Origin: Loxodes magnus
Lineage: Eukaryota; Ciliophora; Karyorelictea; Loxodida; Loxodidae
Assembly (NCBI GenBank): GCA_946699065.1
Contig: CAMPDV010002411.1
Coordinates: forward strand, 1 to 64,000
Direction: 5' to 3'
Length of the DNA: 64,000 nt
This document shows, in pieces, positions 3,001 to 63,599 of this stretch (within the stretch, counting starts at the first letter, position 1; every line of letters starts with the position of its first letter). The notes beneath the pieces are model-generated. The model had not been told where the DNA came from, did not search any database, and saw nothing but the letters and a program-made list of their open reading frames with translations. A program made the position numbers and the translations under genes.

Positions 3001-3290
3001 AGTCTACACTAAAAAGGCATGAGATATTTTTAATATTTAATATATATCTTAATTTCATTTAATAAGATTTGGCAATCAATTAGCATAATTAGGTTCAAAA
3101 ATCTTCTTAAAATATCATAATACACAAGTTATGAGTAAGCAGGTATTGATTGTGTATTATAACTCTCTTGATTATCTATTTAATATCTCTGAGTTATAAA
3201 ATATAAACTCTAGAGCTCCATAAATAGAAATAAAAATGACTCAAAGGCAAATACAAAAGGAGATTAATAAATCATTAAAAATATTTGCGT
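1..3290. other. AT-rich stretch, no supported gene
   Basis: No product is recognised here. On the plus strand the frame starting at base 2 contains only about six UGA codons over roughly 850 codons and looks moderately protein-like (for example KFKCGQLTKIDWLFHTSVK near 1.84 kb). A second frame is open for several hundred bases in the same place, so low UGA content may only reflect base composition. Treat it as possible remains of a gene, not as a gene. Confidence 0.2.
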
Positions 3291-3299
3291 TATTCTGAT

Positions 3300-8861: not shown

Positions 8862-9535
8862 TTTTATCAATGATAGAACTACTCTACTCTCCAATCTACT
8901 CTTTTCTACTGCTCTAATTCCCGATTAAGTGTCAATTTCTTCTTATATATAATTCTCTAGGGATAGCAGAACATCTTCCTAAAATATTATGATATCTTCT
9001 TTTCTAATCAGTATCTCTCTTCTCAATAAGTTCTACCTATTATAGAAAAATTAGGACTGTTGATAAAGATGTTTTTCGTTTCTGCAAGAAATAGCATTTC
9101 TTCGAAAATAAACTAAGATAATTTATTGAGTGTGCAGGAGCATTATCTTTTTCCAGATCAATTTTATCCTCTATTTCCTTCTTTTGTGTTTGTCATTTTT
9201 TTATTTTCAATTGCATTTTTGCCAATTTTCTTATACTTTTTCATGTCTATCTCCCAGTTCTGTTAGCTTTTATTGCTAAATTTTAGATTGTTTGCTCTTG
9301 TTTTGTGATATGCTTTAAATGGGTATAGATCTCACTTTCAGACAGATATCTTGATTTTTTCTAGTATTATATTTAGTCTCTTCATTAACTTATATGAATA
9401 AATAGCTTTTTTCTATTTTTATCTTTTTTGTATCAACTTCTTCTTTATTAATTTAAATGTAAGTTTTAATATTTTTACATATTTATTATAGTATAAATTA
9501 TTAAATACTTGAGCTTTGAAAAGTTAATTATAGGT
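8862..9535. other. Spacer, possible minus-strand ORF1 remnant
   Basis: Between 9350 and 9150 the minus strand gives a coiled-coil-like run (LTELGDRHEKVQENWQKC) resembling ORF1 proteins, but no zinc knuckle or start can be placed. On the plus strand FRFCKKQHFFEN near 9.08 kb is weakly knuckle-like. Neither is firm. Confidence 0.2.
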
Positions 9536-20220: not shown

Positions 20221-20616
20221 ATGATCAACTCTACATAAACTAACAATTCACTTCTAAAAAATAAATGGATACAGATCTTAAAATTAGAAATTTTCACAGG
20301 GATCTTAAAAAAATGTAAATTGAAGGACAAATCACAAATAAATATTGGAGTCTAAAGAAGAACAACAAGAAAATACAAGAAGTAATGGAGATAAGTTGGA
20401 AGATAAAAGGAATGCTGCTTGAACTTTATGATCATAATTAAAATGAAGTAACAGATTCATATCAATAACTTCATTTCATTAATATTTTTATTTAAGTGAT
20501 TTCTTCTTTACTCCAATTTATGGATATACTACTGATAAGAAAAAACTTCTTACAGCTTTAGTTTTGTGAATAGCCAAATAAAGGTGAGGAAACTTTAATT
20601 TTATTCTAAATTAATA

Positions 20617-21017
20617 AATGGATGTCGGCCACGGTCAGGAAAATTAGTAGACAATCGGTCAGTTTATACTATATTGCGAGTAATCTCGCACAGATACCAC
20701 AGCAGACTAGCTCAGAAGAGACAAATCTAACTTCCCCACGGGCTCTCGCTATCAGTATGAAAGTTTGACTGACGGTTATGCTAATGACAAATTACTAATT
20801 CTTATTTGGACTTTTTTCAAGAAGACTGGAGCAATTTATACAAGATTTAAGAATAAGTTTTAATAAGAAGATTCCCCATTTGAAAAGCTAAAGTGAATCA
20901 TTGAACGAATAGAATGAAAAAGAGAAGCATGAGAACGCTTTTTTTAATATTTAATATTAATACTGAAGTGCCCCAACTAGGTGCTACATGTTCAATAATC
21001 ATCTTAATTTATTTTTT
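20617..21017 (+). mobile_element. SINE-A copy 1 (diverged)
   Basis: Starts AAATGGATGTCGGCC and is alignable over its length to the copies at 44.7, 49.1 and 55.5 kb. Shared blocks are TGCGAGTAATCTCGCA, AGTATGAAAGTTTGACTGACGG, and AATAAGAAGATTCCCCATTTG. The 3' hairpin region is degraded and the ATTT tail is short. It lies between the LINE ORF2 and the kinase fragment. Confidence 0.7.
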
Positions 21018-21019
21018 AT

Positions 21020-21635
21020 GTTATGAAATACTTGGGCACTAAAAAATAGGTTGGAAAAATTAGATGGATGGCTAATGAGTTATTTGGAATGAAGCAGAGA
21101 TATAATATCTTTTCCGACATATATGCTTATAGAGTTGTTTTATGGGAGATAGTGACGAGAAAAATACCTTTTGAGGAAGTAGAGGAAGGAGAGTTACGTA
21201 AAGGGATAAAGAGAGGTGAAAGAGATAAAATACCTGAGAATTGTGACATAGAGGAGATAATAAGGGGGAGTTGAAAATAAGAGGTTGATCAAAGAATGAG
21301 TTTAGAAACGTCATTGTAGAAGTTAGAGAAGATAAAGCAAGAAATGAGAGAGTAGTAGATAATGTAACAAGAAATGAGAGAGTTTGAGATAATAAAGAGT
21401 AATGTGGAGAAATTTGAAGAAGAAGAGTAAAAGGAAGTTGGAACAAATAAAAAAGCGAAAGTATAAGAAAATAGTAATTTTAAATAATTTGTAGAAATTA
21501 AACTTTATTACTAGAAATTAATTGAATTTGCTTATAATTTGCTAGTAGAAAATATATATTAATACCAATGTTAATTTTTAATATTAAAGATAGGTAAAAT
21601 ATTGAATAGATAAACTATTGTTTGATATTAAATAA
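21020..21635 (+). pseudogene. Protein kinase C-lobe fragment with coiled-coil tail
   Basis: One uninterrupted frame: LGTKKQVGKIRWMANELFG (activation loop and APE helix, with APE now ANE), then SDIYAYRVVLWEIVTRKIPF (subdomain IX, invariant Gly replaced by Arg), then IPENCDIEEIIRGS-UGA-KQEVDQRMSLETSLQKLEKI (subdomain XI). The UGA sits exactly at the Trp of the conserved CW motif. A Glu-rich coiled-coil tail follows, and the next UGA is near 21.63 kb. The style resembles TKL/MLK-like kinases common in ciliates. The N-lobe and catalytic loop are absent: the fragment begins right after SINE-A copy 1. The truncation and altered Gly/APE residues argue for a pseudogene. Confidence 0.75.
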
Positions 21636-21639: not shown

Positions 21640-24235
21640 TAAAATAGTTTAGTTTAAAAAAGCTAAAAAACAAGATTGCAAAAATACAAAAATTTAAAGC
21701 TAGAAATTATTTAGAAAAATAAAAAATTAAATATCTTAAAAAAAACTAAATTTGAACACTCTGTTAAGATATAATATGCATGTAGTTATATATTTATATA
21801 TTTTTATTTTATAACTTACTGATTAACTAGTGCATATGTTTTTTTATCAGTAGCAAGAAATTTTGATTTCATACAAAAAAAGATATTTTTTATATTTTAT
21901 TTTATATCTTTTTTAAGAATTAAATATTAAATGATACATAAGAAATAAAAGACATTTCCAATAAAGTCTAATAAATCTTAGCAGGATGTAGCTAACGATT
22001 TTTATCGTATATAGATGGAAAAAAGAAATTTAATAAGACAAATAGTGACTTTATCAAAGAACTTATGATTTTAATAACACTATGAAATTTTAATATCTGA
22101 ACATTTAATTTTAAGATAGGATAAACTTACTAAAAATTAAGATAAACTTAAAATTCTAGAAATTTTAAGCCAGAACAATCCTTTGAAAAATTAAATTAAA
22201 TAAAAAATAAATCTCAGACAAAAGAGATTAAAATATGATAGTGATATAATATTAACAAAAGTTGTCAGTTTTTATTCTTATTCTATTAATATTGGCAGAT
22301 AAAAAATGCATTCATTTATCAATCATAGTTGCTTATTATAAATTAGACGTCTTAATTTTTTTTCTTCAACATTTAGCATTCAATTATATTTAAAACACTT
22401 CAAATTTAAATTTTTTTTCTAAAGGTTCACCACCATCAATGTAAGTTATTTACATTAACTTGATACGAGTTGAAATAAAGGATCGTACCTAATCATGTAA
22501 TAATCTCTTGCAGCTTATGAGGACTATCTTCAGAGCTTTTGGCTTAATGGGCTTGTTTCAGCTGTCTTTCGGGATTGAAATTTATTAAGTTTAAGATTTT
22601 AAGATTGAGGTCAGAAATTTGAACTGTTTTAACTAAAATTAGATTTTTAGAAAAATAGAAGCTAAATAATAGCTTATTTTTTTGAAAAAAGAAGCCATAT
22701 AAAATAGGCTACATTTTTTGGTTAATACGTTAATCGTGAAAAAGCAGGTTTATTTTAGAAGAAATACTATTATAAAAAACTCATTATTTTAAAAACATAA
22801 ATGTTTTTAGTAAGGTTGGAAATATAAAGGTTGGAAATATACCCGCCGGATTATACCCGCCTTTTTAGAATATAGCTCTCTACCCCCCCCGTGCTCGTCT
22901 AAAAAAATTAGAAAATATTAATTTAAAAAAATAGAATTGATTCTTATTAATGAAAAAAAAAGATTTATTTTTTTAAATTACTTTAATCACGCATATAACT
23001 ATTGACACGCCAATTGTACAAAAAAAATTCACTATATAACTTTTTGTCTTTATTTAAAATTTTATTACTAATCGTAAACTTTAACTTTCTAAATTTTCCT
23101 TTTTTATCTTGAACATTTTTTGTTTGAATTCGACTAGTTTATCAAGTCCTGAAAAAAATACTTATTACTCTCGGAATAAAAAAAATTTAAACTTTAATAA
23201 AATACAAACATAAAAAAAATTAAACTATAAAACTTTATAAATGAAATAGAAAAAATAAAGAAATTAACTAATAAAATAATGAATTAACTTAAAAAAAATG
23301 AAATTATGTACACATATTAAAGATCTACTCTTTTACAAATTTTCTTTTTAAACAAATCTTATTAATAAAAAAAATTAAAATTATTTATTGATAAATTTTA
23401 TTAACGAAATATTTTTATTTTTAATAATACAATTATTTTTTGTAATGAATATGTAACTTTTTAATAATTTTTGAAATTTAAATTACATTTTATAAACAAA
23501 AAAATTTAAAAAAATAACTATTAAAAAAAAATGAAATAACCAAATAATTTAAATCAATAAATGTACTTTCTTAAATAAATTTTTATATAAGTTTTAATTA
23601 ACTTAAAATTTACGTAAATTTTTTTTAAATAGGAATTTTTTTTTAATTTACTAAGATATATAAAATTCTTTAAATTGAAATTACCAAATTAAAATCTTAT
23701 AATTCTACTTAATTGTAAATTAATGTATCGTATATTTTTTATTTAACAATGATAAAACCTTTATAAATAAATTTAATCTTTAAATACTATGATATACCTT
23801 TTTATATTATGATTAATAAAATCTATATTTTCATAAACATATCAACATTACATATATCATTAAACAAACTATCTTATTACTTATATCTTACTACTTCTTT
23901 TTACTCAACAATTTGTTAAGATTAACTTTAATAATTAATCTTAATCGAATATACTAAATTAAATATTTTAAATACTTACTTATAAATTATTTTATTCTAA
24001 TAAACTAATATTACTAATAATATATAAAAAAGAAAATGATTATCTAATAACATTAGAAAATACATACTTAAATGTTAAATTCATATATTTAACATAGATC
24101 TGTCAAATATAAACGTTTATAAATAATAAAAATAAACATGATAGATTATTTTTTAATTCTTAGTTAAGTAGAGTTTTAAAAGTTTTAGAGTTCGTTCTCT
24201 CATTCTCACTTCATCACTACAATATTAAGGCTTAT
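21640..24235. other. AT-rich spacer before the array
   Basis: No gene supported. A 7-bp hairpin (AATGTAA with TTACATT) lies at about 22.44 kb in a slightly more GC-rich patch (22.43-22.60 kb) that I could not identify. A GC-rich repeat patch at 22.81-22.89 kb is listed separately. Confidence 0.5.
22812..22890. repeat. Short GC-rich direct-repeat patch
   Basis: AAGGTTGGAAATAT occurs twice (22812-22825 and 22827-22840), ATACCCGCC twice (22839-22847 and 22853-22861), followed by a run of eight C at 22883-22890. It is an island of GC in nearly pure A/T. Function unknown. Confidence 0.6.
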
Positions 24236-24237
24236 TT

Positions 24238-24436
24238 TTACATCCTGTATTATAATAAGTATTCATTACCCCCTAATAATATTTTCAAATATACTTACAT
24301 TCTGAAATGATAATAAAAAAAAAGTTGCCATCTAAATAAATTAAAACTTGTACGATCTGAAAATAAAAATTAGATTAAAACATGCTTACATACTAAAATA
24401 ACACATTACGATCTATATGAAACATTAAAATTTTAA
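24238..24436 (+). repeat. Degenerate left flank: spaced TTAC-NNNC-T motifs
   Basis: Motifs matching the array's TTAC, three variable bases, C, T pattern recur at 24238, 24266, 24295, 24325 (TTGC), 24350 (GTAC), 24386 and 24406. Spacing is 20-36 bases, averaging about one array period. The DNA between motifs no longer resembles the unit. The simplest reading is old, indel-scarred array. Confidence 0.55.
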
Positions 24437-27400
24437 TTACTTTCTTCAAATTTCACCTTTAAATTTCTCTTACGGTCTTCAAGTTTCACCTTTAAATTTC
24501 AATTACTTTCTTCAAGTTTCACCTTTAAATTTCAATTACTCACTTCAAGTTTCACCTTTATATTTCACTTACCCTCTTCAAATTTCACCTTTATATTTCA
24601 CTTACCCTCTTCAAGTTTCACCTTTAAATTTCAATTACTTTCTTCAAGTTTCACCTTTAAATTTCACTTACTCACTTCAAGTTTCACCTTTAAATTTCAA
24701 TTACATTCTTCAAGTTTAACCTTTAAATTTTACTTACTTTCTTCAAGTTTCACCTTTAAATTTCACTTACAGACTTCAAGTTTCACCTTTAAATTTCAAT
24801 TACTCACTTCAAGTTTCACCTTTATATTTCACTTACGGTCTTCATGTTTAACCTTTAAATTTTACTTACATTCTTCAAGTTTCACCTTTAAATTTCACTT
24901 ACCCTCTTCAAGTTTCACCTTTAAATTTCACTTACCCTCTTCAAATTTAACCTTTATATTTCACTTACCCTCTTCAAGTTTCACCTTTAAATTTCAATTA
25001 CTCACTTCAAGTTTCACCTTTAAATTTCACTTACAGACTTCAAGTTTCACCTTTAAATTTCAATTACTCACTTCAAGTTTCACCTTTATATTTCACTTAC
25101 CCTCTTCAAATTTCACCTTTATATTTCACTTACCCTCTTCAAGTTTCACCTTTAAATTTCAATTACTTTCTTCAAGTTTCACCTTTAAATTTCACTTACT
25201 CACTTCAAGTTTCACCTTTAAATTTCAATTACATTCTTCAAGTTTAACCTTTAAATTTTACTTACTTTCTTCAAGTTTCACCTTTAAATTTCACTTACAG
25301 ACTTCAAGTTTCACCTTTAAATTTCAATTACTCACTTCAAGTTTCACCTTTATATTTCACTTACGGTCTTCATGTTTAACCTTTAAATTTTACTTACATT
25401 CTTCAAGTTTCACCTTTAAATTTCACTTACCCTCTTCAAGTTTCACCTTTAAATTTCAATTACATTCTTCAAGTTTAACCTTTATATTTCACTTACCCTC
25501 TTCAAGTTTCACCTTTAAATTTCAATTACTCACTTCAAGTTTCACCTTTAAATTTCACTTACAGACTTCAAGTTTCACCTTTAAATTTCAATTACATTCT
25601 TCAAGTTTCACCTTTATATTTCACTTACCCTCTTCAAGTTTCACCTTTATATTTCACTTACCCTCTTCAAGTTTCACCTTTAAATTTCAATTACTTTCTT
25701 CAAGTTTCACCTTTAAATTTCAATTACTCACTTCAAGTTTCACCTTTAAATTTCACTTACATTCTTCAAGTTTCACATTTATATTTCACTTACGGTCTTC
25801 ATGTTTCACCTTTAAATTTCAATTACATTCTTCAAGTTTAACCTTTAAATTTCACTTACTCACTTCAAGTTTCACCTTTAAATTTCACTTACAGACTTCA
25901 AGTTTAACCTTTAAATTTTACTTACTTTCTTCAAGTTTCACCTTTAAATTTCACTTACAGACTTCAAGTTTCACCTTTAAATTTCACTTACTTTCTTCAA
26001 ATTTCACCTTTATATTTCACTTACCCTCTTCAAGTTTCACCTTTATATTTCACTTACCCTCTTCAAGTTTCACCTTTAAATTTCAATTACTTTCTTCAAG
26101 TTTCACCTTTAAATTTCAATTACTCACTTCAAGTTTCACCTTTAAATTTCACTTACAGACTTCAAGTTTCACATTTATATTTCACTTACGGTCTTCATGT
26201 TTCACCTTTAAATTTCAATTACATTCTTCAAGTTTAACCTTTAAATTTCACTTACTCACTTCAAGTTTCACCTTTAAATTTCACTTACAGACTTCAAGTT
26301 TCACCTTTAAATTTCAATTACATTCTTCAAGTTTAACCTTTAAATTTCACTTACGGTCTTCATGTTTCACCTTTAAATTTCACTTACCCTCTTCATGTTT
26401 AACCTTTAAATTTTACTTACTTTCTTCAAGTTTCACCTTTAAATTTCTCTTACGGTCTTCAAGTTTCACCTTTAAATTTCAATTACTTTCTTCAAGTTTC
26501 ACCTTTAAATTTCTCTTACGGTCTTCATGTTTCACCTTTAAATTTCAATTACTTTCTTCAAGTTTCACCTTTAAATTTCAATTACTCACTTCAAGTTTCA
26601 CCTTTAAATTTCACTTACATTCTTCAAGTTTCACATTTATATTTCACTTACGGTCTTCATGTTTCACCTTTAAATTTCACTTACTTTCTTCAAGTTTCAC
26701 CTTTAAATTTCACTTACTCCCTTCAAGTTTCACCTTTAAATTTCAATTACTCACTTCAAGTTTCACCTTTAAATTTCACTTACAGACTTCAAGTTTCACC
26801 TTTAAATTTCACTTACGGTCTTCATGTTTCACCTTTAAATTTCACTTACCCTCTTCATGTTTAACCTTTAAATTTTACTTACTTTCTTCAAGTTTCACCT
26901 TTAAATTTCTCTTACGGTCTTCAAGTTTCACCTTTAAATTTCACTTACAGACTTCAAGTTTCACCTTTAAATTTCACTTACGGTCTTCATGTTTCACCTT
27001 TAAATTTCACTTACCCTCTTCATGTTTAACCTTTAAATTTTACTTACTTTCTTCAAGTTTCACCTTTAAATTTCTCTTACGGTCTTCAAGTTTCACCTTT
27101 AAATTTCAATTACTTTCTTCAAGTTTCACCTTTAAATTTCACTTACAGACTTCAAGTTTCACCTTTAAATTTCAATTACATTCTTCAAGTTTAACCTTTA
27201 AATTTCACTTACGGTCTTCATGTTTCACCTTTAAATTTCACTTACCCTCTTCATGTTTAACCTTTAAATTTTACTTACTTTCTTCAAGTTTCACCTTTAA
27301 ATTTCTCTTACGGTTTTCATGTTTCACCTTTAAATTTCAATTACTTTCTTCAAGTTTCACCTTTAAATTTCAATTACTCACTTCAAGTTTCACCTTTAAA

Positions 27401-30400
27401 TTTCACTTACATTCTTCAAGTTTCACATTTATATTTCACTTACGGTCTTCATGTTTCACCTTTAAATTTCAATTACATTCTTCAAGTTTAACCTTTAAAT
27501 TTCACTTACTCCCTTCAAGTTTCACCTTTAAATTTCAATTACTCACTTCAAGTTTCACCTTTAAATTTCAATTACATTCTTCAAGTTTAACCTTTAAATT
27601 TCTCTTACATTCTTCAAGTTTCACCTTTAAATTTCACTTACCCTCTTCATGTTTAACCTTTAAATTTTACTTACTTTCTTCAAATTTCACCTTTATATTT
27701 CACTTACCCTCTTCAAATTTCACCTTTATATTTCACTTACCCTCTTCAAGTTTCACCTTTAAATTTCAATTACTTTCTTCAAGTTTCACCTTTATATTTC
27801 ACTTACCCTCTTCAAGTTTCACCTTTAAATTTCAATTACGGTCTTCATGTTTCACCTTTAAATTTCAATTACATTCTTCAAGTTTAACCTTTATATTTCA
27901 CTTACTTTCTTCAAGTTTCACCTTTAAATTTCTCTTACGGTCTTCAAGTTTCACCTTTAAATTTCAATTACATTCTTCAAGTTTAACCTTTAAATTTCAC
28001 TTACTTTCTTCAAGTTTCACCTTTATATTTCACTTACTCACTTCAAGTTTCACCTTTAAATTTCTCTTACATTCTTCAAGTTTAACCTTTAAATTTCACT
28101 TACCCTCTTCAAATTTCACCTTTAAATTTCACTTACCCTCTTCATGTTTAACCTTTAAATTTCACTTACTTTCTTCAAGTTTCACCTTTAAATTTCTCTT
28201 ACGGTCTTCAAGTTTCACCTTTAAATTTCACTTACTCACTTCAAGTTTCACCTTTAAATTTCACTTACAGACTTCAAGTTTCACCTTTAAATTTCACTTA
28301 CTCCCTTCAAGTTTCACCTTTAAATTTCAATTACTCACTTCAAGTTTCACCTTTAAATTTCAATTACATTCTTCAAGTTTAACCTTTAAATTTCACTTAC
28401 TCCCTTCAAGTTTCACCTTTAAATTTCACTTACTTTCTTCAAATTTCACCTTTATATTTCACTTACCCTCTTCAAATTTCACCTTTAAATTTCAATTACT
28501 TTCTTCAAGTTTCACCTTTAAATTTCAATTACATTCTTCAAGTTTAACCTTTAAATTTCACTTACCCTCTTCAAGTTTCACCTTTAAATTTCAATTACTC
28601 ACTTCAAGTTTCACCTTTAAATTTCAATTACTCACTTCAAGTTTCACCTTTAAATTTCACTTACAGACTTCAAGTTTCACATTTATATTTCACTTACGGT
28701 CTTCATGTTTCACCTTTAAATTTCAATTACATTCTCAAGTTTAACCTTTAAATTTCACTTACTCCCTTCAAGTTTCACCTTTAAATTTCAATTACTCACT
28801 TCAAGTTTCACCTTTAAATTTCACTTACAGACTTCAAGTTTCACCTTTAAATTTCAATTACATTCTTCAAGTTTAACCTTTAAATTTCACTTACTCCCTT
28901 CAAGTTTCACCTTTAAATTTCAATTACATTCTTCAAGTTTAACCTTTAAATTTCACTTACCCTCTTCAAATTTCACCTTTAAATTTCAATTACTTTCTTC
29001 AAGTTTCACCTTTAAATTTCAATTACTCACTTCAAGTTTCACCTTTAAATTTCACTTACTCCCTTCAAGTTTCACCTTTAAATTTCAATTACTCACTTCA
29101 AGTTTCACCTTTAAATTTCAATTACATTCTTCAAGTTTCACCTTTAAATTTCAATTACATTCTTCAAGTTTAACCTTTAAATTTCACTTACTCCCTTCAA
29201 GTTTCACCTTTAAATTTCAATTACAGACTTCAAGTTTCACCTTTAAATTTCACTTACAGACTTCAAGTTTAACCTTTAAATTTCACTTACTCCCTTCAAG
29301 TTTCACCTTTAAATTTCAATTACATTCTTCAAGTTTAACCTTTAAATTTCACTTACCCTCTTCAAATTTCACCTTTAAATTTCAATTACTTTCTTCAAGT
29401 TTCACCTTTAAATTTCAATTACTCACTTCAAGTTTCACCTTTAAATTTCACTTACCCTCTTCATGTTTAACCTTTAAATTTTACTTACTTTCTTCAAGTT
29501 TCACCTTTAAATTTCTCTTACGGTCTTCAAGTTTCACCTTTAAATTTCAATTACTTTCTTCAAGTTTCACCTTTAAATTTCAATTACTCACTTCAAGTTT
29601 CACCTTTAAATTTCACTTACAGACTTCAAGTTTCACCTTTAAATTTCAATTACATTCTTCAAGTTTAACCTTTAAATTTCACTTACTCCCTTCAAGTTTC
29701 ACCTTTATATTTCACTTACCCTCTTCAAGTTTCACCTTTAAATTTCAATTACTCACTTCAAGTTTCACCTTTAAATTTCAATTACTTTCTTCATGTTTCA
29801 CCTTTAAATTTCACTTACCCTCTTCATGTTTAACCTTTAAATTTCACTTACTCCCTTCAAGTTTCACCTTTAAATTTCAATTACTCACTTCAAGTTTCAC
29901 CTTTAAATTTCAATTACATTCTTCAAGTTTCACCTTTAAATTTCACTTACTTTCTTCAAATTTCACCTTTATATTTCACTTACCCTCTTCAAATTTCACC
30001 TTTATATTTCACTTACCCTCTTCAAATTTCACCTTTAAATTTCACTTACTCACTTCAAGTTTCACCTTTAAATTTCAATTACATTCTTCAAGTTTAACCT
30101 TTAAATTTCACTTACCCTCTTCAAGTTTCACCTTTAAATTTCACTTACAGACTTCAAGTTTCACCTTTAAATTTCACTTACTCCCTTCAAGTTTCACCTT
30201 TAAATTTCACTTACTTTCTTCAAGTTTCACCTTTAAATTTCAATTACATTCTTCAAGTTTAACCTTTAAATTTCACTTACGGTCTTCATGTTTCACCTTT
30301 AAATTTCACTTACCCTCTTCAAGTTTCACCTTTAAATTTCATTTACATTCTTCATGTTTCACCTTTAAATTTCAATTACTCACTTCAAGTTTCACCTTTA

Positions 30401-33025
30401 AATTTCACTTACAGACTTCAAGTTTCACCTTTAAATTTCACTTACAGACTTCAAGTTTCACCTTTAAATTTCTCTTACGGTCTTCAAGTTTCACCTTTAT
30501 ATTTCACTTACGGTCTTCATGTTTCACCTTTAAATTTCAATTACTCACTTCAAGTTTCACCTTTAAATTTCAATTACTTTCTTCAAGTTTCACCTTTAAA
30601 TTTCAATTACTCACTTCAAGTTTCACCTTTAAATTTCAATTACATTCTTCAAGTTTCACCTTTAAATTTCAATTACTCACTTCAAGTTTCACCTTTAAAT
30701 TTCAATTACATTCTTCAAGTTTCACCTTTAAATTTCACTTACTTTCTTCAAATTTCACCTTTATATTTCACTTACCCTCTTCAAATTTCACCTTTATATT
30801 TCACTTACCCTCTTCAAGTTTCACCTTTAAATTTCACTTACAGACTTCAAGTTTCACCTTTAAATTTCTCTTACATTCTTCAAGTTTAACCTTTAAATTT
30901 CACTTACCCTCTTCAAGTTTCACCTTTAAATTTCACTTACAGACTTCAAGTTTCACCTTTAAATTTCACTTACTCCCTTCAAGTTTCACCTTTAAATTTC
31001 AATTACTCACTTCAAGTTTCACCTTTAAATTTCACTTACAGACTTCAAGTTTCACCTTTAAATTTCAATTACATTCTTCAAGTTTAACCTTTAAATTTCA
31101 CTTACTCCCTTCAAGTTTCACCTTTATATTTCACTTACCCTCTTCAAGTTTCACCTTTAAATTTCAATTACTCACTTCAAGTTTCACCTTTAAATTTCAA
31201 TTACTTTCTTCATGTTTCACCTTTAAATTTCACTTACCCTCTTCATGTTTAACCTTTAAATTTCACTTACTCCCTTCAAGTTTCACCTTTAAATTTCAAT
31301 TACTCACTTCAAGTTTCACCTTTAAATTTCAATTACATTCTTCAAGTTTCACCTTTAAATTTCACTTACTTTCTTCAAATTTCACCTTTATATTTCACTT
31401 ACCCTCTTCAAATTTCACCTTTATATTTCACTTACCCTCTTCAAATTTCACCTTTAAATTTCACTTACTCACTTCAAGTTTCACCTTTAAATTTCAATTA
31501 CATTCTTCAAGTTTAACCTTTAAATTTCACTTACCCTCTTCAAGTTTCACCTTTAAATTTCACTTACAGACTTCAAGTTTCACCTTTAAATTTCACTTAC
31601 TCCCTTCAAGTTTCACCTTTAAATTTCACTTACTTTCTTCAAGTTTCACCTTTAAATTTCAATTACATTCTTCAAGTTTAACCTTTAAATTTCACTTACG
31701 GTCTTCATGTTTCACCTTTAAATTTCACTTACCCTCTTCAAGTTTCACCTTTAAATTTCATTTACATTCTTCATGTTTCACCTTTAAATTTCAATTACTC
31801 ACTTCAAGTTTCACCTTTAAATTTCACTTACAGACTTCAAGTTTCACCTTTAAATTTCACTTACAGACTTCAAGTTTCACCTTTAAATTTCTCTTACGGT
31901 CTTCAAGTTTCACCTTTATATTTCACTTACGGTCTTCATGTTTCACCTTTAAATTTCAATTACTCACTTCAAGTTTCACCTTTAAATTTCAATTACTTTC
32001 TTCAAGTTTCACCTTTAAATTTCAATTACTCACTTCAAGTTTCACCTTTAAATTTCAATTACATTCTTCAAGTTTCACCTTTAAATTTCAATTACTCACT
32101 TCAAGTTTCACCTTTAAATTTCAATTACATTCTTCAAGTTTCACCTTTAAATTTCACTTACTTTCTTCAAATTTCACCTTTATATTTCACTTACCCTCTT
32201 CAAATTTCACCTTTATATTTCACTTACCCTCTTCAAGTTTCACCTTTAAATTTCACTTACAGACTTCAAGTTTCACCTTTAAATTTCTCTTACATTCTTC
32301 AAGTTTAACCTTTAAATTTCACTTACCCTCTTCAAGTTTCACCTTTAAATTTCACTTACAGACTTCAAGTTTCACCTTTAAATTTCACTTACTCCCTTCA
32401 AGTTTCACCTTTAAATTTCAATTACTCACTTCAAGTTTCACCTTTAAATTTCAATTACATTCTTCAAGTTTAACCTTTAAATTTCACTTACGGTCTTCAT
32501 GTTTCACCTTTAAATTTCACTTACCCTCTTCAAGTTTCACCTTTAAATTTCATTTACATTCTTCATGTTTCACCTTTAAATTTCAATTACTCACTTCAAG
32601 TTTCACCTTTAAATTTCACTTACAGACTTCAAGTTTCACCTTTAAATTTCACTTACAGACTTCAAGTTTCACCTTTAAATTTCTCTAACGGTCTTCAAGT
32701 TTCACCTTTATATTTCACTTACGGTCTTCATGTTTCACCTTTAAATTTCAATTACTCACTTCAAGTTTCACCTTTAAATTTCACTTACAGACTTCAAGTT
32801 TCACCTTTAAATTTCACTTACAGACTTCAAGTTTCACCTTTAAATTTCACTTACTCCCTTCAAGTTTCACCTTTAAATTTCACTTACTTTCTTCAAGTTT
32901 CACCTTTAAATTTCAATTACTTTCTTCATGTTTCACCTTTAAATTTCACTTACGGTCTTCATGTTTCACCTTTAAATTTCAATTACCCTCTTCAAGTTTC
33001 ACCTTTAAATTTCACTTACCCACTT
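24430..33025 (+). repeat. 33-bp tandem array, 260 periods, one variable triplet per unit
   Basis: Each unit is TTCAAGTTTCACC, then TTTAAATTTCAATTAC, then a triplet, then C. The triplet is one of seven words: TTT, GGT, CCT, TCA, AGA, ATT, TCC. Other sites toggle between few states (AAG/ATG/AAA; TTCACC/TTTAACC; TAAATTT/TATATTT; CAATTAC/CACTTAC/CTCTTAC). First and last TTAC lie at 24437 and 33016, a distance of 8579 = 260 x 33 - 1, with the single missing base near 28735. The plus strand is C-rich, G-poor and free of TGA in all frames; the minus strand has TGA in every frame. Multi-unit blocks are duplicated (see separate entry). It could be satellite DNA or part of a giant repeat protein (11-residue unit QVSPLNFTYxL). 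No start codon or expression signal is visible. Confidence 0.95.
29570..32720 (+). repeat. Higher-order duplication inside the array
   Basis: The rare variant CATTTACATTC occurs at 30340, 31759 and 32551. The first two are 1419 bp apart (43 units), and the surrounding order of unit types is identical over about 1.4 kb (from about 29.58 and 31.00 kb). The third lies 792 bp (24 units) further and repeats the same local order. A separate 528-bp (16-unit) duplication starts at 24551 and 25079. The array has grown by copying multi-unit blocks. Confidence 0.85.
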
Positions 33026-33049
33026 ATTTCTCTAATTTTTTAAAAAGAT

Positions 33050-33250
33050 ACTTACAATCTTTTTACAGAATGGTCATTTGAACTTTACATTCTAAAAAAT
33101 ATAAATACTATCTTACAATCTAAAGATTTTATTTAATCCATACTCCCTGTAACATAAAATATTTAAGACTTACATCCTTTAAAAAAAATGGTAATTCTTA
33201 AACTTACCTTGCTCTTAATTTAGATAAAAAAAATTTTACCATCTATAATA
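33050..33250 (+). repeat. Degenerate right flank: spaced TTAC-NNNC-T motifs
   Basis: The motif recurs at 33052, 33085, 33113, 33140 (ATAC), 33170, 33204 (imperfect) and 33236, spaced 27-36 bases, with unrelated DNA between. It mirrors the left flank and fades beyond 33.28 kb. Confidence 0.55.
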
Positions 33251-34375
33251 TTTTTTAAAGGAGAACATTAAATTTGAACTTACTGAATTCCATTTGCAAC
33301 TTCTCACCATTCAAAAAATTGAAACTAGCTACCGTTTAACCGTCATCCAAAGTTAACTTATTCTTAACGATACTCAAACCGCTAGATAGTAACTAAGTTT
33401 ATGATTAAATCTAATGTTTTATTTAATCGATGGTAGTCTCTTATTTTACTTATAACTATACCGTTTTACCATTAGGCGATACAATTATTATTTAGATGTC
33501 CGTTGGTTTTTTCTACTAAGGAATATTTTAAAGTTATGGAGGTTGTTAAGGTTGATCTACTGGTTTTATTTCTTACAGTTAGATCAACTGTGCTTATAAA
33601 GAAGATAACTACTATTACTAAATTTAAACTTAATCACTTAAATTTTATATCTCTTTTTTCAATTAGTTATTTTCCTATGTTACTTTAGTAAAATTAAACT
33701 TGCAAGAGTCTAACTCTTCAAAAACTTTAACCGATATCTGATTGTTCTACTAGATGATCTTTTAGGCATCGGCTACCAATTTTGAAACTTATTGCTCTCT
33801 CTGATGAGATAGATATTCTTACTAAACAAACTACTACTAGTTATTCCCTTATTTGTCCATCAACTACTTTTTAATTTTGAAAAACCTTAACTATTCTTGG
33901 ATTTAGTTTTTCTCCTAAACCAACTATCTTTTTAAGACGATATTCTCCTTAAAAATGTAAAAGCTTACGTGCTTTATCAACTACTAGATGAAAACACTGT
34001 AGACCTTTGCTAATTAAGTTTAAGCTTAACGTAATCTTAATGATTGATTCTCTAACATCGTTATATTTTCTAAGAGGTTCTTTTGTTCAAGACGCTGGAG
34101 TAACTAAGTATCTTCTTGAAGTTTTACTGGATGAACCTTATGAACTTTTTAGCAATTTTAGTCAAAACATTTGATCGCTTAAATTTTCTAAAACTAATCA
34201 TAAGTACAGATTGCACAAATGTTATGCTTACATGGTAGCAACATTGGGATTTTCATCTACCTATCAAAATCTCCTTGACACTAATAACATTTAGCAGTCT
34301 AGGACATTTCAGATTACATTATTAATTTAAGAAAAACTTTTGCTTATAAACAAAATACACGTATGTATAGGTTAA
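33251..34375 (+). other. More balanced, possibly coding region downstream of the array
   Basis: Base composition is less extreme than in the flanks and drops sharply at about 34.37 kb. One plus frame is protein-like, especially its end: SLTSLYFLRGSFVQDAGVTK, then YLLEVLLDEPYELF near 34.1 kb, and YMVATLGFSSTYQNLL near 34.24 kb. It is the same frame as QVSPLNFTYxL at the array's right end. Against this, UGA density is what chance predicts and other frames also look passable. No family recognised. Confidence 0.3.
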
Positions 34376-35564: not shown

Positions 35565-36446
35565 ATGGAGAGTTGGAACAAAGGTTTTCTTATAAAAAAG
35601 ACGATCCATAGCACTTCTGATCATTCTTTCTAGAACTAAAAAACACCAACCAAGATCTAAAAAAAATATAGCCAAATCTCAGAAGAAAAATAACTGCCTT
35701 CCAAAATTCCAAAAAAGAGGCATACATTCGAATAACTAATGAAGTCAGATAAGGAATAACTCGTAGAGATCATTATCGACTACACCGATAAAGTAGAGAA
35801 TCTCGAACACTATGTCATAAACATATAAAAAAACTTACAAGATCATGTCGAAGATGAGAAGCCGCACCCTGAATTTATAACAAAATAGGACATTAATAAT
35901 AGGTATTAAGAAATAGAATGCGATATTGTAAGACTAGATGAACAAATGGGAATAGATTTTCAAAAATATGAAAATGTCTTCTAGCAAATTATAGAAATTA
36001 AATAAAGATTAGCAAAATTAGAGAATTAACAATCCTAAAAAAATCAAGATCAAATGATAATAGAAGAACAGCCCACGACTAAATAAAAGTTCTTCAAAAA
36101 GAAGTGCCACATATGCGGCAGCTAATATCACCTTTGAAGACGATGCAAGGAGAATATGCAAATTAGATAAAAGATTTGAAACGAATTGACTACGTTTTAC
36201 CCATCCTCGGATGGTTAGCTATGACGGAAAAAGATATCTCAAAGACCATTCGGAAAGTTCGGAAGTGAACTTGGGTGGAGACACTGGGGAGTCCGAGATC
36301 CTGTAAAAGGTAATACAGGGGGTTATGGATCTTTTAAGGGAACACTCCATTAGCCTTAAAATTTTTAATTTAATTTAAACAAAGAAAAATCATTTACTAT
36401 CTATACGAAAAATTTTGTTCATATAAAAACTTAATAAATTCGTTGA
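35565..36446 (+). CDS. LINE-type ORF1 copy F, unbroken (coiled coil plus CCHC knuckle)
   Basis: A single frame of 293 codons from ATG 35565 (MESWNKGFLIKKT, preceded by a run of A as in other copies) to UGA 36444-36446. Order: Ser/Lys-rich N-terminus; coiled coil (35739-36040; QLVEIIIDYTDKVENLEHY); QMIIEEQP, the pre-knuckle signature; then CHICGSQYHL-UGA-RRC (CX2CX4HX4C). The C-terminus has FYPSSDGQL, LGWRHWGVRDPV and GGYGSFKGTLH. Three internal UGAs fall where Trp fits: HL-W-RRC (copy H has TGG there), KI-W-NEL, and QL-W-RKK. The likely role is nucleic-acid binding and chaperoning of a LINE-type RNA. A UAG after GTLH (36.35 kb) could instead be the stop in an all-ambiguous code. Confidence 0.75.
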
Positions 36447-37200
36447 AAGATGTTGAAGAAGGATTTTATTAGAAAAAATTTAAATAAATGAAAGAGTTTG
36501 GGAACTAAATAAACTTAGAACAAAGATAAATCTCAATCTTCTCCTAAGTAATGGTTCCATTCGACATCTGGATGGGTAAACATTGTTCGGAAGGCACGCC
36601 TGAAAGATAAGTTCCGTCTTCCATTTCAGATGAAATTACATCTAGCAGAATCTGCCCTCCTATATTAGCACGATAAGGAGCTAGAGGCAGGGCTGGAGAA
36701 AGAGCTGATATGCGCTCTGGTCCACTGTCTCAGTACACCCTCAGGAATTAAGGAAGGCATATCGTAAGATTGGAAAATAGAATATCCAGGTCTTAGCAAA
36801 AGCGAGCTCTTCAACTAAAGCCAGAACGAATTATTATTTATCAAGTCATTGTGCTCTTTCTGCTCCTCACCGCCTTCTTTTCACTAGCCAACCTGATTAT
36901 CTCCCAAATTAGAACTAAGTTAGGGGATGAAACTTTCGTTCATTTGTAAATATTAGATAAATCGAGAGAAATTTGATATTTATTGAACTAACAGTGAGGA
37001 GACTGATCACTCTCTATGACAGAATCTATTATGGGAATAAACTTCCCTTTTGACGTCAAGAACTTATACATGGGCTGTAAGTTAATGAGAATAAGTGCAG
37101 GACTGAAAAAAAATCAGAAGGGGAGAAACCCGACAAAATTGATAAGAAGCGAAACGCACTCTATAGCAAACTAACTAACTCTCTGTATCATAAATAATAA
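36447..37200 (+). CDS. Unrecognised protein frame, GC-richer than flanks
   Basis: Directly after ORF1 copy F and in the same frame, the sequence continues without a frame change as a soluble-looking protein. Blocks include QWFHSTSGWVNIVRKARLKD, FRLPFQMKLHLAESALLYQ, ELEAGLEKELICALVHCLS, WKIEYPGLSKSELFNQ, and KFDIY-W-TNSEETDHSLW. UGAs near 36.89, 36.98 and 37.07 kb fall at plausible Trp sites. GC content is near 43 percent until about 37.19 kb and then collapses, marking the 3' limit. The minus strand also gives readable peptides, so strand is likely but not certain. No family recognised. It may be a host gene or a second ORF of the element. Confidence 0.4.
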
Positions 37201-40754: not shown

Positions 40755-41500
40755 ATGGCGGACTTCAGAAAGGAATTTTTTCCTGCTCTTAGGAGCCTGG
40801 TACGTAGAAAAATACAAGGAAAATAAAAATATCCAGAAAGTGACCCAAGCATAAACACCAACATCGTAAGAGAAGTCTAGAAAGTCCGTACTGCCCAAAG
40901 AGGTTTCAGAGCTTAATCCTTCCGGTCAGATGTGTATGTAGCAGTTTATTAAAGTAGCGCTAAACCTCCAGGAAGTTATTAAGAAACTACGAATAGAGAA
41001 CTCAAAGTTATCGGAACAGATTCATCATGGACTTCAAGATTCTTTTGACCTCAGAAGGGATAATCAGGAGTATCTCGATATATTATGGAAATACTAGCAA
41101 GAACAGTTTAGGTAGATGAACTCCCAAGTACAATAGATTTAGGACTAAAATGAATAGATTTAAAATAACTTACAAAGCTAAAAGAGACTCAAAGTTAAAA
41201 AAGCTAATACAGTCAGCGAAAATTAAGAGATATATTATGGAAATTGAAGAAAAAAAGCCACAGAAAATTTAAACTGAGGAAAAAGAATAAAGAAATGATA
41301 TTACTGCAATAGCGAAAGACACTTGCGTCTGAACTGTCTGAAATTCCGAAATTTTTAAAGATAATATTGAATCTAATAACAAAAGAAGAGGGAGCAATTT
41401 TATTGTAGCAAGAATGAGTAGATTTACAGAAAACCTAGGATTACAAGATTCCAAAAGTAATTGGACCAAAGAGAGGACTACACGACCTTAGCAATCAAGA
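40755..41500 (+). mobile_element. LINE-type ORF1 copy G, degenerate 3' half
   Basis: ATG 40755 after an A-run opens MADFRKEFFPALRSLVRRK, then KYPESDPSINTNIVREVQK, which aligns with copy A (GYPDDTNWRGRTRKVLE). After a frame change near 40.9 kb comes the coiled coil VALNLQEVIKKLRIENSKL, then QEQFRQMNSQVQQIQDQNEQ (about 41.1 kb). The knuckle region near 41.3 kb is not convincing. A minus-strand element (SINE-B copy 1) starts at its 3' end. Confidence 0.6.
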
Positions 41501-41569
41501 AATCTAAACTTTCAAACTTATTTTATACGGCAGTGATTTACCGCTTTTGGACAGTTTTAAATTAAAAAT

Positions 41570-41975
41570 TAGTTTAGAGAGTGCGGAGCACTTCGATAGT
41601 GCACAGATCTTTTACTGTTTAATATTGATAAAAATAAAAACTTCTTGCGATCCTCAGGTTAATTACATATTGAATCGTAGAGTAAAAAAAAGTTGAGAGA
41701 GACAAAAATCCATTATAGATATTCTGTTTCTCCAACCTCTGATGAAAAATATTTTGAAAGAAAAAACACCTTGAGTCAAGTTATTGAAAGGAGAACACCA
41801 TTACCGAGAACTAATAAAAATGTTTCCAAAGTCCAACCCAATCAGAGGAAGACAACAGTAGATTATGTGTACTACCTTTCTCCATTCTATGATGAAGATG
41901 TCCCTTTCCTCTTCACCCTCAAATTTAGTATGATTTCCAAATTAAATTATATAATAAATAAAAATGAGGAAAATA
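41570..41975 (-). mobile_element. SINE-B copy 1
   Basis: The 3' hairpin, read on the minus strand, lies at about 41576-41613 and matches the hairpins at 46.27, 49.6 and 54.06 kb. The body extends right to about 41.97 kb and ends with an AT-rich stretch shared with the copy at 49.9 kb. Read on the plus strand, the body contains a tandem pair about 150 bases apart: SVSPTSDEKYFE at 41.72 kb and YLSPFYDEDVPFLF at 41.87 kb. A standard-code frame of 95 codons (41693-41980) covers both. It is unclear whether the repeat is a peptide or just DNA. Confidence 0.6.
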
Positions 41976-42034
41976 AATAATTGACAAATTGTATTTATTA
42001 GATAGATTGATATATAGAATTAATGATTAAAAAG

Positions 42035-42320
42035 ATGGCAGGAGTTTAGGCTGATCGTCTAATAAAAATTTTTGCTTTATGAATAAGGTCAAGCTCCGAT
42101 CCAGTCAACGAGAAGGTCTTTGGCTAGAGTCAATTCCTATAAGCGAATAAAAAATTTTTGGCTATCACCTCTTGCGAAGACTTGAAGTCTGTTGGCTCAT
42201 AGTTATGGAACTCCCTACCAAAGTTTATTGGATTAAGCAAAAGGATATCAATATCATGTGCCTAAAGAGAGTGCTATGTATTTTTTATCTGGGAAGAAGT
42301 TTTTAGTCACTAGAAACATA
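42035..42320 (+). other. GC-richer fragment starting ATGGCAGGAG, paralogous to 52973-53265
   Basis: Begins AAAAAGATGGCAGGAG, like the ORF1 element starts. Its nucleotides align with the fragment at 53.0 kb: GAAGACTTGAAGTCTG then TTGGCTCATAG, against GGAGCTTGAAGCCTG then GCTGCTCATAG. A plus reading gives TWSLLAHSYG, against AWSLAAHSDR in the other copy, with UGA at the Trp. Frame is broken relative to that copy. Identity unknown. Confidence 0.45.
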
Positions 42321-42860
42321 TTAAGTTAATCTAATTTAAATTGATATTTAAACATTTGGTGTTCTTGGAGGATTTTCAACATCTTTCCTGATATCTCCCG
42401 TGTTGCTTTTGATATAAAAAATAAACTTAAATGTTCTATGTTTTCACTCATTGCCTTTCATGCAAATCTTGAAATCTCCCGTTTTTCTATCTGTACTTAT
42501 TTTATTTTTTCTTGTAATTTTATTTAAAATAGCACATAACTATTTTTCTATCTTTTTAATTTCATTATCTGCTATGTCTTCTTTTTTCTTGTTTCTATCT
42601 TTGTTATTTCCATAATTCATATTTGAAGATAATAAATTACTTACATCTTCTTTATAATTTTTTTAATTAAAATAATAGGTTTTCTTGTTTATTCTTTTTG
42701 AATTTGATGATTGTATCTTATTTTCCTTTAATATCATCATATGCTTCCTTGTTCTTTATAATCATTTTAATGTTGCATTTTGCATTAACTTTCTATTATT
42801 TCTTTTATTTTTCTGATTAGTCCCTTTTCCTCTTATTATTATTTTTATGACTTGAAATGA
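42321..42860 (-). other. Possible minus-strand protein fragment, unrecognised
   Basis: Read leftward: MIIKNKEAYDDIKGKQDT, then after a frame change KEDVSNLLSSNMNYGNN, then ISTDRKTGDFKICMKGN, W (UGA), KHRTFKFIFYIKSNTGDI and RKDVENPPRTPNV to about 42.3 kb. Composition (Gly, Asp, Arg, Pro) is better than random A-rich DNA gives. No family recognised. Confidence 0.3.
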
Positions 42861-44034: not shown

Positions 44035-44715
44035 TTAAAAGGTTTCATCTTAATCAAGCAACAAATATTAAAAAATACTTTAAGAACTCAGAGTCATGAA
44101 AAAGAAAATTTTAACTTATTAAGACAAGTATAAGAACTAGAAAATAAAATAAAATTTCTGATGATCAATGTCTAAGATAAAAAAATTGGAAATAAACAAG
44201 AAGAAAATGCTAAAATAGAATAATTAGAAACTAAATTCAATCAATTCGAAGAATTGAATGAAAGCATACTCCTATCAAAGCTTTCGATGAAAGATCCAAT
44301 AGACTTAGAATAGCATATCCCAACAACTTATATTCCCTAACGGTAAATTATGATATGTTGATATTGCAAGAGACCTAGATATAAAGTAAGAAACTACTTC
44401 CAATTTAGACTTAAGGAAAAGAGAATCATAGAAAATCACTGGGAAAATATTTTCAGAATCTACTCCAATTTTGAAGGAAAACTTTATAGAAAGAAAATAC
44501 TCTAACTAATTAGAAAAGCTCCGCATATTTAACATGCAGTTATGAATTGACCTATCGGAAACTATTAGCAAAAACAAATTAAAAATCATGAGGACTTATG
44601 ATAGACTTGATCCAGACAAATTGTAAGTTTCTTTTTATTAACAAAAAACTATTAATTCGTGGAAAACCAAATAAAGATGACTCCACGTTAATCAATTATT
44701 ATTATAATTATACTA
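44035..44715 (+). mobile_element. LINE-type ORF1 copy J with (ATT)n tail
   Basis: One frame from about 44.1 kb: coiled coil NFNLLRQVQELENKIKFLM, then AKIEQLETKFNQFEELNES, the signature MKDPIDLEQ at 44.29 kb, and a degraded knuckle C-UGA(W)-YCKRPRYKVRNY at 44.36 kb. A tail follows whose end, ELTYRKLLAKTNQKS and then RGKPNKDDSTLIN, is alignable with the end of copy I. It closes with ATTATTATTATAATTAT at about 44.69 kb. SINE-A copy 2 follows after some 15 bases. Confidence 0.6.
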
Positions 44716-44728
44716 TTATATATATAAA

Positions 44729-45155
44729 ATGGATGTCGGCCGCGTCAGACAAATTAGTAGGTAATCTGGTGCAGTGTATACTGCATTGCGAGTAATCTCG
44801 CACTAGATGCCACCACGGGGAAGGGTGGATAAGCTCTGTTGAGACATACCTAACTTACCCCGAGGGTTCTCTCTAGAAGTATGAAAGTTTGACTGACGGG
44901 CCTTCTAATTACCAACTTAAAAACTAATTCTTATTTGGAATTTATTCAAGAAGACTGAAGCATTTGATTCAAGATTTAATAATAAATTTTAATAAGAAGA
45001 TTCCCCATTTGGAGAAGCTAATATGATTCGTCGGACCTCTAGAATTTAGCAAGAATCATGAGAACATTTTTTTAATGTTAAATATTAATATTAGAAGAGC
45101 TGCGCGTCAATGGAGTGCTACGCTCTTTATAATCATTTTTATTTATTTATTTATA
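44729..45155 (+). mobile_element. SINE-A copy 2 (best reference copy)
   Basis: Starts AAAATGGATGTCGGCC. The head (44729-44905) looks like a folded RNA. A closing stem pairs GGCCGCGTCAG (44738-44748) with CTGACGGGCC (44893-44902). Inside are perfect hairpins TGCAGT-GTAT-ACTGCA (44770-44785) and TGCGAG-TAAT-CTCGCA (44787-44802), and a CCACC/GGTGG stem (44810-44828). The AT-rich body carries GAAGATTCCCCATTTGGAGA. The 3' end is a hairpin (GAGCTGCGC paired with the ACGCTC side, 45096-45128), then TATAATC and an ATTT repeat. No tRNA or 5S fold is recognised; GTTTGACTG is only weakly like a B box. Confidence 0.75.
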
Positions 45156-48237: not shown

Positions 48238-49455
48238 ATGGCTTTCAAGAAATAAGAATTGCATGTGTAAACTTCTAACAATCAAAAAGACTTAAAAAAT
48301 GATTTCTATATCTTCAAACTGGATAATTAGAAATTAACAAAAGAAATTGAAGATATAAATTAAATAACTTAAAATCTTATGCTAACTATTAACAAATTAG
48401 TCAACTAATAGTGGGTAAATTAAGAAAATGACTTATAGCCTCAGATATAATAGATGGAAAAATAATTTAACACATAAAAAGGAATTTAAGATAAACTTTA
48501 GATCAGATAATTAATTAACTGGAACGTAAAAACATAAATTAACTAAATAACCCAGAATCAAGAGCGAAACAGAGCGTGTCCCTAGACTTTGTATACTAAA
48601 AGAGAAAGCTAAAATGCAGATTTTGCAAAAAATAGAGACACATGATAAAAAACTGCTACAAATTTTAGTAGTAATATGATATAAATAAAATAAATAAATA
48701 AAAATGATTATAGAGCGCGTAGCATCTCATTGGTGCGCAGTTCTTTCAATATTAATGTTTAATATTAAGAAAATGTTCTCATGCTTCTTGTTAAAATTCT
48801 AGAGGTCCGATGAATCATACCAACTTCTCCAAATGGGGAATCTTCTTATTAAAATTTATTCTTAAATCTTGAGTCAAATGCTTTAGTCTTCTTGATTAAA
48901 GTCCAAATAAGAATTAGTTTTTAAGTCGGTAATTAGAAAGTCCGTCAGTCAAACTTTCATACTGCTAGAGAGAATCCTCGGGGTAAGTTAGGTATGTCTC
49001 AACGGAGCTTATCCACCCTTCCCCGTGGTGGCATCTAGTGCGAGATTAATCGCAATGCAGTATACACTGCACCAGATTACCTACTAATTTGTCTGACGCG
49101 GCCGACATCCATTTTATAATATATCTAATAAAAGAAAAATAAATCTACAGTCTATTTAATATTTATTGAACGCCAGAAGGAAGACTTTATCAGAAAAAAA
49201 TATTTTAACCATACGTGGAAGCACCAAAGATAACAGATACAACGAGAAAATTTGAGAGATGATAATTTGGCTTTCATTATAACCAATTAACAAGAGAAGA
49301 AAGCAAGTAAATAATAAGAATTTATGATCCAGAAAAACCAGAAGGATTTGATTATGAAACTTATTAAGAATTTGAAACTTTCGAAAACTTTAAATTAGTG
49401 ACAAACCGAACAAAGGTGACATCACTTTAATATACATTATTATTATTAAAATATT
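48238..49455 (+). mobile_element. LINE-type ORF1 copy I, split by SINE-A copy 3
   Basis: ATG 48238 after an A-run: MAFKKQELHVQTSNNQ, then a long Gln/Asn-rich coiled coil (48290-48560). After one frame change near 48.6 kb comes a complete CCHC knuckle, CRFCKKQRHMIKNC (48613-48654). A minus-strand SINE-A (48682-49112) interrupts. The C-terminal part resumes at about 49.2 kb: FER-UGA(W)-QFGFHYNQLTREESK, YDPEKPEGFDYETYQEF and ETFENFKLVTNRTKVTSLQ. The element ends in ATTATTATTATTAAAATAT at about 49.43 kb. The nested arrangement dates the SINE insertion after the ORF1 element. Confidence 0.75.
48682..49112 (-). mobile_element. SINE-A copy 3, inserted in ORF1 copy I
   Basis: Nearly identical in plan to copy 2, on the minus strand: the AAATAAAT tail at 48682, GAGCGCGTAGC hairpin at about 48712, and GGCCGACATCCAT 5' end at 49112. 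Inner hairpin TGCAGTATACACTGCA is kept. The second hairpin has one loop change (GAGATTAATCGC). It appears among the youngest copies by eye. Confidence 0.8.
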
Positions 49456-55470: not shown

Positions 55471-55474
55471 TAAA

Positions 55475-55895
55475 ATGGATATCGGCCGCATCAGATAAAT
55501 TAGTAGGTAATCTGGTGCGGTGTATAATGCATTGCGAGTAATTTGTACTAGAGGCCATCACTGGGAAGGGTGGATAAGCTACGTAGAGATATGCCTAACT
55601 TTCTCCGAGGATTCTCTCTAGCAGTATAAAAGTTTGAGTAACGGGCTTTCTAATTACCGACTTAATAATTAATTCTTATTTGGACCTTATTCAAGAAGAC
55701 TTAAACATTTGACTCAATATTTAAGAATAATTTTTAATAAGAAGATTCCCCATTTGGAGAAGCTAACATGACTCATTGGACTTCTAGAATTTTAGCAAGA
55801 AACATGATAATATTTTTCTTATTATTAAATATTAATATTGAAAGAGCTACGCGCCAATGAGGTGCTACGCGCTCTATAATTATTATTATTTAAAA
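55475..55895 (+). mobile_element. SINE-A copy 4
   Basis: Starts AAAATGGATATCGGCCGC. Keeps ATTGCGAGTAATTTG, GGGAAGGGTGGATAAGCTACG, GAAGATTCCCCATTTGGAGA and the 3' hairpin GAGCTACGCGCCAATGAGG with TGCTACGCGCTCTATAAT. The tail is ATTATTATT, not ATTT. The closing stem is weakened (GTAACGGGC). Confidence 0.75.
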
Positions 55896-62458: not shown

Positions 62459-62459
62459 A

Positions 62460-63566: not shown

Positions 63567-63569
63567 GTT

Positions 63570-63592: not shown

Positions 63593-63599
63593 TTAACAT

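Follow-up and report, generated by a model that had tools for sequence, protein, structure and literature searches.

A 33-bp tandem array of Loxodes magnus as the predicted micro-exon tail of a RING/ubiquitin-like gene

We analyzed a window of 64,000 nt from the ciliate Loxodes magnus (assembly GCA_946699065.1, contig CAMPDV010002411.1, positions 1-64,000 of the forward strand), in which a tandem array of 33-bp units, each with a hypervariable triplet, extends over 24441..33022. From its sequence, we consider it likely, with a probability of about 0.75, that this array forms the 3' portion of a micro-exon gene on the minus strand, with one codon supplied per exon and the exon-intron unit tandemly amplified. 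The hypervariable triplets would be the exons. In the predicted model, exon 1 encodes a RING/helix/ubiquitin-like protein and a 282-residue C-terminal tail derives mostly from 275 micro-exons, 273 of which are 3 nt long. These would be joined by the removal of 276 spliceosomal introns, all in phase 1; 260 of the introns are a nearly identical 30-mer, such that exon and intron together make up the 33-bp tandem unit. The interpretation is carried by the splice-like grammar of the array, the statistics of its flanks, an open reading phase, and the gene upstream, each of which can be read directly from the DNA.

Tandem Repeats Finder (TRF) places the repeat at 24428-33019, with a period of 33, 260.4 copies, and 89% matches. 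When the minus strand is divided at the variable triplet, it yields 260 units (259 of 33 bp and one of 32 bp), each parsed as a 3-nt exon plus a 30-nt intron, followed by a terminal triplet, AAA. The single 29-nt intron of the array lies in the unit starting at 28765 (minus strand). Read on the minus strand, the triplets of the 260 units are confined to the words AGG (48), AAT (45), TGA (44), AAA (41), TCT (32), ACC (31), and GGA (18), plus one TGG at the upstream edge of the array. A preliminary description of this DNA, made on the plus strand, had reported 260 periods in register, one 1-bp indel, and a triplet drawn from seven words; the array is real in all these respects, the words being the reverse complements of those listed here. 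In the 259 units of full length, the three word positions have a mean entropy of 1.54 bits, compared to 0.13 bits for the other 30. The main array unit has 62 exact matches in the window, all inside the array; in the viral contigs scanned, a 24-base core of it had 0 matches.

Each minus-strand unit reads AG|NNN|GTAAGTGAAATTTAAAGGTGAAACTTGAAG|NNN|GTAA. The constant 30 nt (GTAA...AG) resemble introns, and the variable triplet is probably a 3-nt exon. Among the full-length units, the donor GT is present in 259 of 259, the extended donor GTAA in 258, and the acceptor AG in 258, and the hypervariable stretch fills exactly the gap between AG and GTAA. The main-form 30-nt intron also contains TGA in all three frames (24441-33022, minus strand). 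This may be chance; if TGA serves as a stop, a retained intron would consequently reach a stop in any frame.

The order of the words is not random, as the preliminary description had proposed to test: neighboring words share 0.44 bits, compared to a shuffled maximum of 0.19 (300 shuffles). Words also share 1.30 bits with the 30-mer that follows them (shuffled maximum 0.48; 300 shuffles), a partial tie of the kind that amplification from a few founder units should leave. Higher-order repeats occur at lags of 24, 43, 67, and 12 units, with 44 identical units in one run at lag 43. For pairs of units at seven lags (12 to 67), the fraction of sites that differ is 0.48-0.63 in the words and 0.045-0.059 in the 30-mers.

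Directly upstream on the minus strand lies exon 1 (33284..34319; 345 codons plus one base in genetic code 27), which encodes a RING-like finger, long predicted helices, and a ubiquitin-like domain. Pfam returns ubiquitin (E 6.4e-5 to 8.5e-5) and zf-RING_UBOX (E 0.003-0.004), both under their gathering scores; these weak matches suggest an intracellular protein. In phmmer searches, the exon-1 protein hits PDB chains of ubiquitin; in 5x3m, for instance, residues 1-69 align with residues 283-351 of the 354 in the query (P0001). The ubiquitin match stops at residue 351, directly before the first donor, and exon 1 ends in phase 1 a few residues past it, at ...GAATTCA|GTAAGTTC. A single-sequence structure model of exon 1 is of low confidence (mean pLDDT 57.4; about 40-57 in the ubiquitin-like domain). 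It contains two long helices and, at residues 275-336 of 345, the succession strand-strand-helix-strand-strand, which is the order of the ubiquitin-like fold.

The RING/ubiquitin-like open reading frame (ORF) contains 57 internal TAA/TAG codons, and no ORF of at least 150 aa is found in the window under table 11 with common starts. A WD40 gene elsewhere in the window matches Pfam at E 2.7e-55 with TGA taken as W and TAA/TAG as Q, and TGA and TGG interchange at one position of its repeats. Judged by these sequences, the code is of the karyorelict type (table 27), in which TAA and TAG encode Q and TGA encodes W, with TGA presumably also acting as the stop; table 28 (Condylostoma) may be an alternative. 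The WD40 gene itself occupies 56728-57785 (minus strand), with TGA as W within the repeats; its stop is probably the TGA at 56730-56728 that follows ...RKWKIAN, and its start at MENKEA (57785) is a guess. It contains a 20-nt phase-1 intron, GTAATTCTTTAATATTTTAG, from 57616, with the form GTAAT...TTTTAG and placed by frame continuity.

The same grammar continues on both sides of the array. The upstream flank (33023..33283, minus strand) parses into eight introns of 41, 26, 31, 27, 24, 25, 30, and 24 nt, which separate the micro-exons ATG, AGCAAG, GAT, GGA, ATT, AAT, ATT, and AGAAATAAG joined to TGG. With an alternative acceptor, TGG would stand by itself instead of in the joined exon, and either exon is a multiple of 3. 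The downstream flank (24217..24440, minus strand) parses into eight introns of 28, 17, 33, 22, 27, 26, 25, and 25 nt, one of them GC-AG, with the micro-exons ATC, TAT, ATC, ATG, AAT, GGG, and GAT. All 16 flank introns have GT/GC...AG ends by construction of the parse. T accounts for 57% of the ten bases preceding AG. The intron lengths are spread 6/6/4 modulo 3, and all 15 flank exons are multiples of 3. The GC content of the flank exons (0.30) is similar to that of exon 1 (0.29), and that of the flank-intron interiors is 0.13. No kinship to the array intron is detectable in the interiors of the 16 flank introns (combined p 0.57).

The spacing of the splice-like signals was also counted with the motif AG-N_k-G[TC]A[AC]. 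On the minus strand of both flanks (483 bp), this motif occurs 12 times at k=3 and 0 or 1 times at every other k in 0-21; on the plus strand of the flanks, the count is 0 at every k. In the rest of the window, the k=3 form occurs 0.26 times per 483 bp on the minus strand and 0.37 times on the plus strand. Consecutive units form chains of 5 upstream and 7 downstream (8 counting the last array word). Chains did not exceed 3 in 5000 dinucleotide shuffles per flank, and they were no longer than 2 in other sequence outside the array or with k set to 2, 4, 5, 6, or 7.

When the 276 predicted introns are removed in the phase set by exon 1, the result is an open tail of 282 residues, in phase 1 throughout and rich in K, L, Q, and E. 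The predicted terminal exon starts with TG ATG AAG TGA (24206..24216, minus strand), and the peptide ends ...GLMK*E*. Its first in-frame TGA is at 24208-24206 and a second follows two codons on (TGA-GAA-TGA); PMC6879139, as excerpted, deals with tandem stops in ciliates. In the spliced sequence from the end of exon 1 to the first stop, the other two phases contain 46 and 2 TGAs. Among the full-length units, the unspliced minus frames contain 262, 259, and 232 TGAs in 2849 codons, and the 30-nt-intron parse contains 44, 0, and 0 in 259. A parse into nested 17-nt introns and 16-nt exons was ruled out as the main one by its 173-175 TGAs per frame in 1381 codons. The codon model trained on exon 1 prefers the inherited phase within the array (0.156 per codon, compared to -0.661 and -0.134 for the others). 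A coiled-coil tail was considered, as the spliced peptide looked coil-like, and withdrawn: hydrophobic periodicity at 3.4-3.7 residues is below that of shuffles.

We infer the following account of splicing, its order, the growth of the array, and the translation and function of the tail. The phase-1 introns would split each codon 1+2, after its first base, and each residue would therefore be set by two adjacent words. As a result, seven words could yield 15 amino acids in the inherited phase; all 15 are present in the array. Exons of 3 nt leave no room for exon recognition, and the introns would therefore be recognized singly. Splicing would probably be stepwise, with each intron removal bringing the next GTAAG to the end of the upstream exon as it grows. 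The array may have grown by unequal exchange of whole units, each bringing one codon and one intron. Since a skipped 3-nt exon would leave the frame intact, the gain and loss of units would be tolerable and the array would be free to expand.

While these features favor a micro-exon gene, several observations weigh against it. The absence of TGA from the inherited phase is by itself weak evidence, because GA does not begin any of the array words and TGA is missing from a second phase within the array as well. The codon models are inconsistent: the one trained on the WD40 gene disfavors the inherited phase (-0.431 compared to 0.003 and -0.015), the pooled model gives 0.097 for another phase and -0.013 for the inherited one, and the flank results are mixed. 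Two rare unit variants fall in the splice signals. One unit (27315..27347, minus strand) has AA in place of the AG acceptor, where the frame would survive skipping of the following ACC, and another (32660..32692, minus strand) has the donor GTTAG in place of GTAAG. A pyrimidine-rich acceptor is absent from the 260 array introns, which end ...AAA[C/T][T/A]TGAAG, and an internal AG|GT permits a nested 17-nt intron in 254 of the 259 full-length units.

Further points concern the flanks, the intron lengths, and the tail. The flank parse was initially made by eye and tested afterwards. Mean intron length is 26.9 nt in the flanks, where 7 of the 16 measure at most 25 nt, and the introns of the array are 30 nt long; in excerpts of PMC11441545, 93% of L. 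magnus introns are reported to be at most 25 nt, with lengths of 3n depleted, a mean of 19.3 nt, and a mode of 17. Heptad periodicity was not found in the tail: power at least as high was seen in 5000 of 5000 shuffles of the words when the full array was used and in 4999 of 5000 when one duplicate had been removed, perhaps because of the 12/24-unit repeats. Likewise, the tail has no Pfam family match at E 0.01.

An origin of the array as a non-coding satellite, expanded on the downstream side of the RING/ubiquitin-like gene, is in our view unlikely. Its AG-N3-GTAAG would then be a conserved protein-binding box or a product of shared ancestry, and its flanks would be decayed units. The high homogeneity, the higher-order repeats, and the recent 43-unit duplication all suit a satellite, and tandem repeats cover 231 of the 706 Mb of the L. 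magnus macronuclear (MAC) assembly according to excerpts of PMC11441545. A homogenised satellite, the conservative view of the preliminary description, thus fits the DNA of the array itself and leaves the flanks unexplained. Their interiors have no detectable homology to the array, yet they keep the 3-nt spacing and T-rich acceptors with intron lengths that are free modulo 3. Moreover, decay would neither make splice-like ends nor set the first donor right behind the ubiquitin-like domain. Slightly less probable again is a micro-exon chain that is transcribed and spliced but untranslated, as a 3' untranslated region (3'UTR) or spliced host RNA, or a series of recursive sites that removes one long intron. 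The open phase inherited from exon 1 is weakly diagnostic on this point, the codon-phase tests disagree between training genes, and 3-nt exons could be skipped in any number. Against this reading, the two flank exons of other lengths (6 and 9+3 nt) are multiples of 3 as well, and the phase-1 reading stays open up to the tandem TGA stop in the terminal exon.

An unspliced protein of 11-residue repeats, encoded on the plus strand or on the minus strand with TGA as W, is very improbable. The 33-bp unit is compatible with it, and the three plus frames are all open in code 6 (2886-3032 aa), an openness that follows from the composition of the repeat. However, the plus frame in which TAC precedes the triplet, proposed in the preliminary description to encode such a protein, is interrupted under the standard code, by 24 TAA codons ahead of the indel and 17 beyond it. 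The long standard-code plus ORFs (24437-28744 and 28720-32688) occupy the neighboring frame. In addition, the 1-bp deletion shifts the frame mid-array, no gene context was found on the plus strand, and each minus frame contains 232-262 TGAs. Regarding the triplet as a codon-sized unit looks right; it is the strand that changes, as the splice-like signals, the gene, the phase, and the flank grammar are all on the minus strand. The combinatorial DNA-binding array that the same description offered as an alternative may also be considered, and it predicts neither T-rich acceptors nor an upstream coding exon. The boundaries of internally eliminated sequences (IESs) of ciliate germline genomes are TA repeats. 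That the 30-bp segments are such IESs is as remote as the unspliced protein: the ciliate origin and the short spacers within a gene would suit them, but the flank boundaries are GT/GC...AG with T-rich 3' ends. Published work on L. magnus, in excerpt, did not find canonical germline-limited IESs.

If the array is indeed the tail of a micro-exon gene, it would put the spliceosome to the test of handling hundreds of 3-nt exons. The tandem amplification of an intron together with a codon would be a route of both intron gain and protein growth. We lean, by a narrow balance, towards a broader proposition: that a satellite-like array can be protein-coding through splicing, with nearly every codon in its own exon, residues added in 33-bp units, 15 amino acids spelled by seven words, and potentially very many in-frame isoforms, and that part of the tandem repeats of such ciliates may be unrecognized genes. 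Arrays masked as satellites could then be genes that are invisible to read mappers, which would change how such repeats are read.

The window contains several other features. A dispersed repeat of about 430 bp is present in four copies that are 71-92% identical (20599-21024; 44714-45154; 48681-49133, minus strand; 55459-55892). One copy adjoins the C-terminal part of a tyrosine-kinase-like domain (20825-21520, plus strand; E 7e-15), which covers profile positions 158-257 of 258 without the N-lobe; this truncated domain is possibly disrupted. A partial eukaryotic large-subunit (LSU) rRNA lies at 62449-63724 on the minus strand (model positions 1890-3399 of 3401). The GC-rich stretches at 7833-8913, 35603-37200, and 40770-42399 gave no Pfam match on the plus strand, which was the strand scanned. 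A Pfam search of six stretches covering part of the GC-rich segments (plus strand, three frames each, 18 translations) found nothing beyond the kinase fragment and a weak match to DUF7630. No tRNA was found in the window by ARAGORN with the bacterial code.

Among the closest known counterparts of the predicted gene are the micro-exon genes (MEGs) of schistosomes and tapeworms. A working definition, given in excerpts of PMC7653826, calls for at least seven exons, of which at least half are shorter than 70 nt and divisible by three, with at least four of these consecutive. In the model proposed here, 275 of the 277 predicted exons are 3n micro-exons in one run, which places it within this definition. 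Like the predicted gene, MEGs contain runs of short 3n exons that can be skipped in frame and are difficult for RNA-seq mapping (PMC7653826, PMC5825161; both in excerpt). Short exons of 6-36 bp make up about 80% of their coding region, and their products are nearly always secreted or membrane-anchored (PMC5825161, in excerpt). In contrast, the L. magnus model comprises 275 predicted exons in one run, 273 being 3 nt long, in a RING/ubiquitin-like protein, with nearly identical tandem introns. Its tail, with some 276 introns per about 0.85 kb of coding sequence, would be far denser in introns than any case in the literature compared, as far as that literature is excerpted.

Other systems share single aspects of the array. 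The word microexon is absent from the main text of PMC11441545, which concerns L. magnus. Among the matches listed from the open-licence PMC literature, and as far as these are excerpted, we found no description of arrays of single-codon exons or of tandem identical introns in a protein gene, which does not prove their absence. Microexons of 3 nt and 1 nt in animals and plants (Ncam, TnT, APC11, VPS55) are likewise exons of a codon or less, but they are single or paired in the descriptions compared, with no arrays (excerpts of PMC8042270 and PMC8831610). Introner elements, known from Amoebophrya and others, resemble the array in being many near-identical introns. In excerpts of PMC7789003, they are dispersed through the genome, carry inverted and direct repeats, and often have non-canonical ends, whereas the predicted introns described here are in tandem, within one gene, and GT-AG. 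The ordinary introns of L. magnus, in a genome that uses code 27, are likewise very short (PMC11441545, in excerpt).

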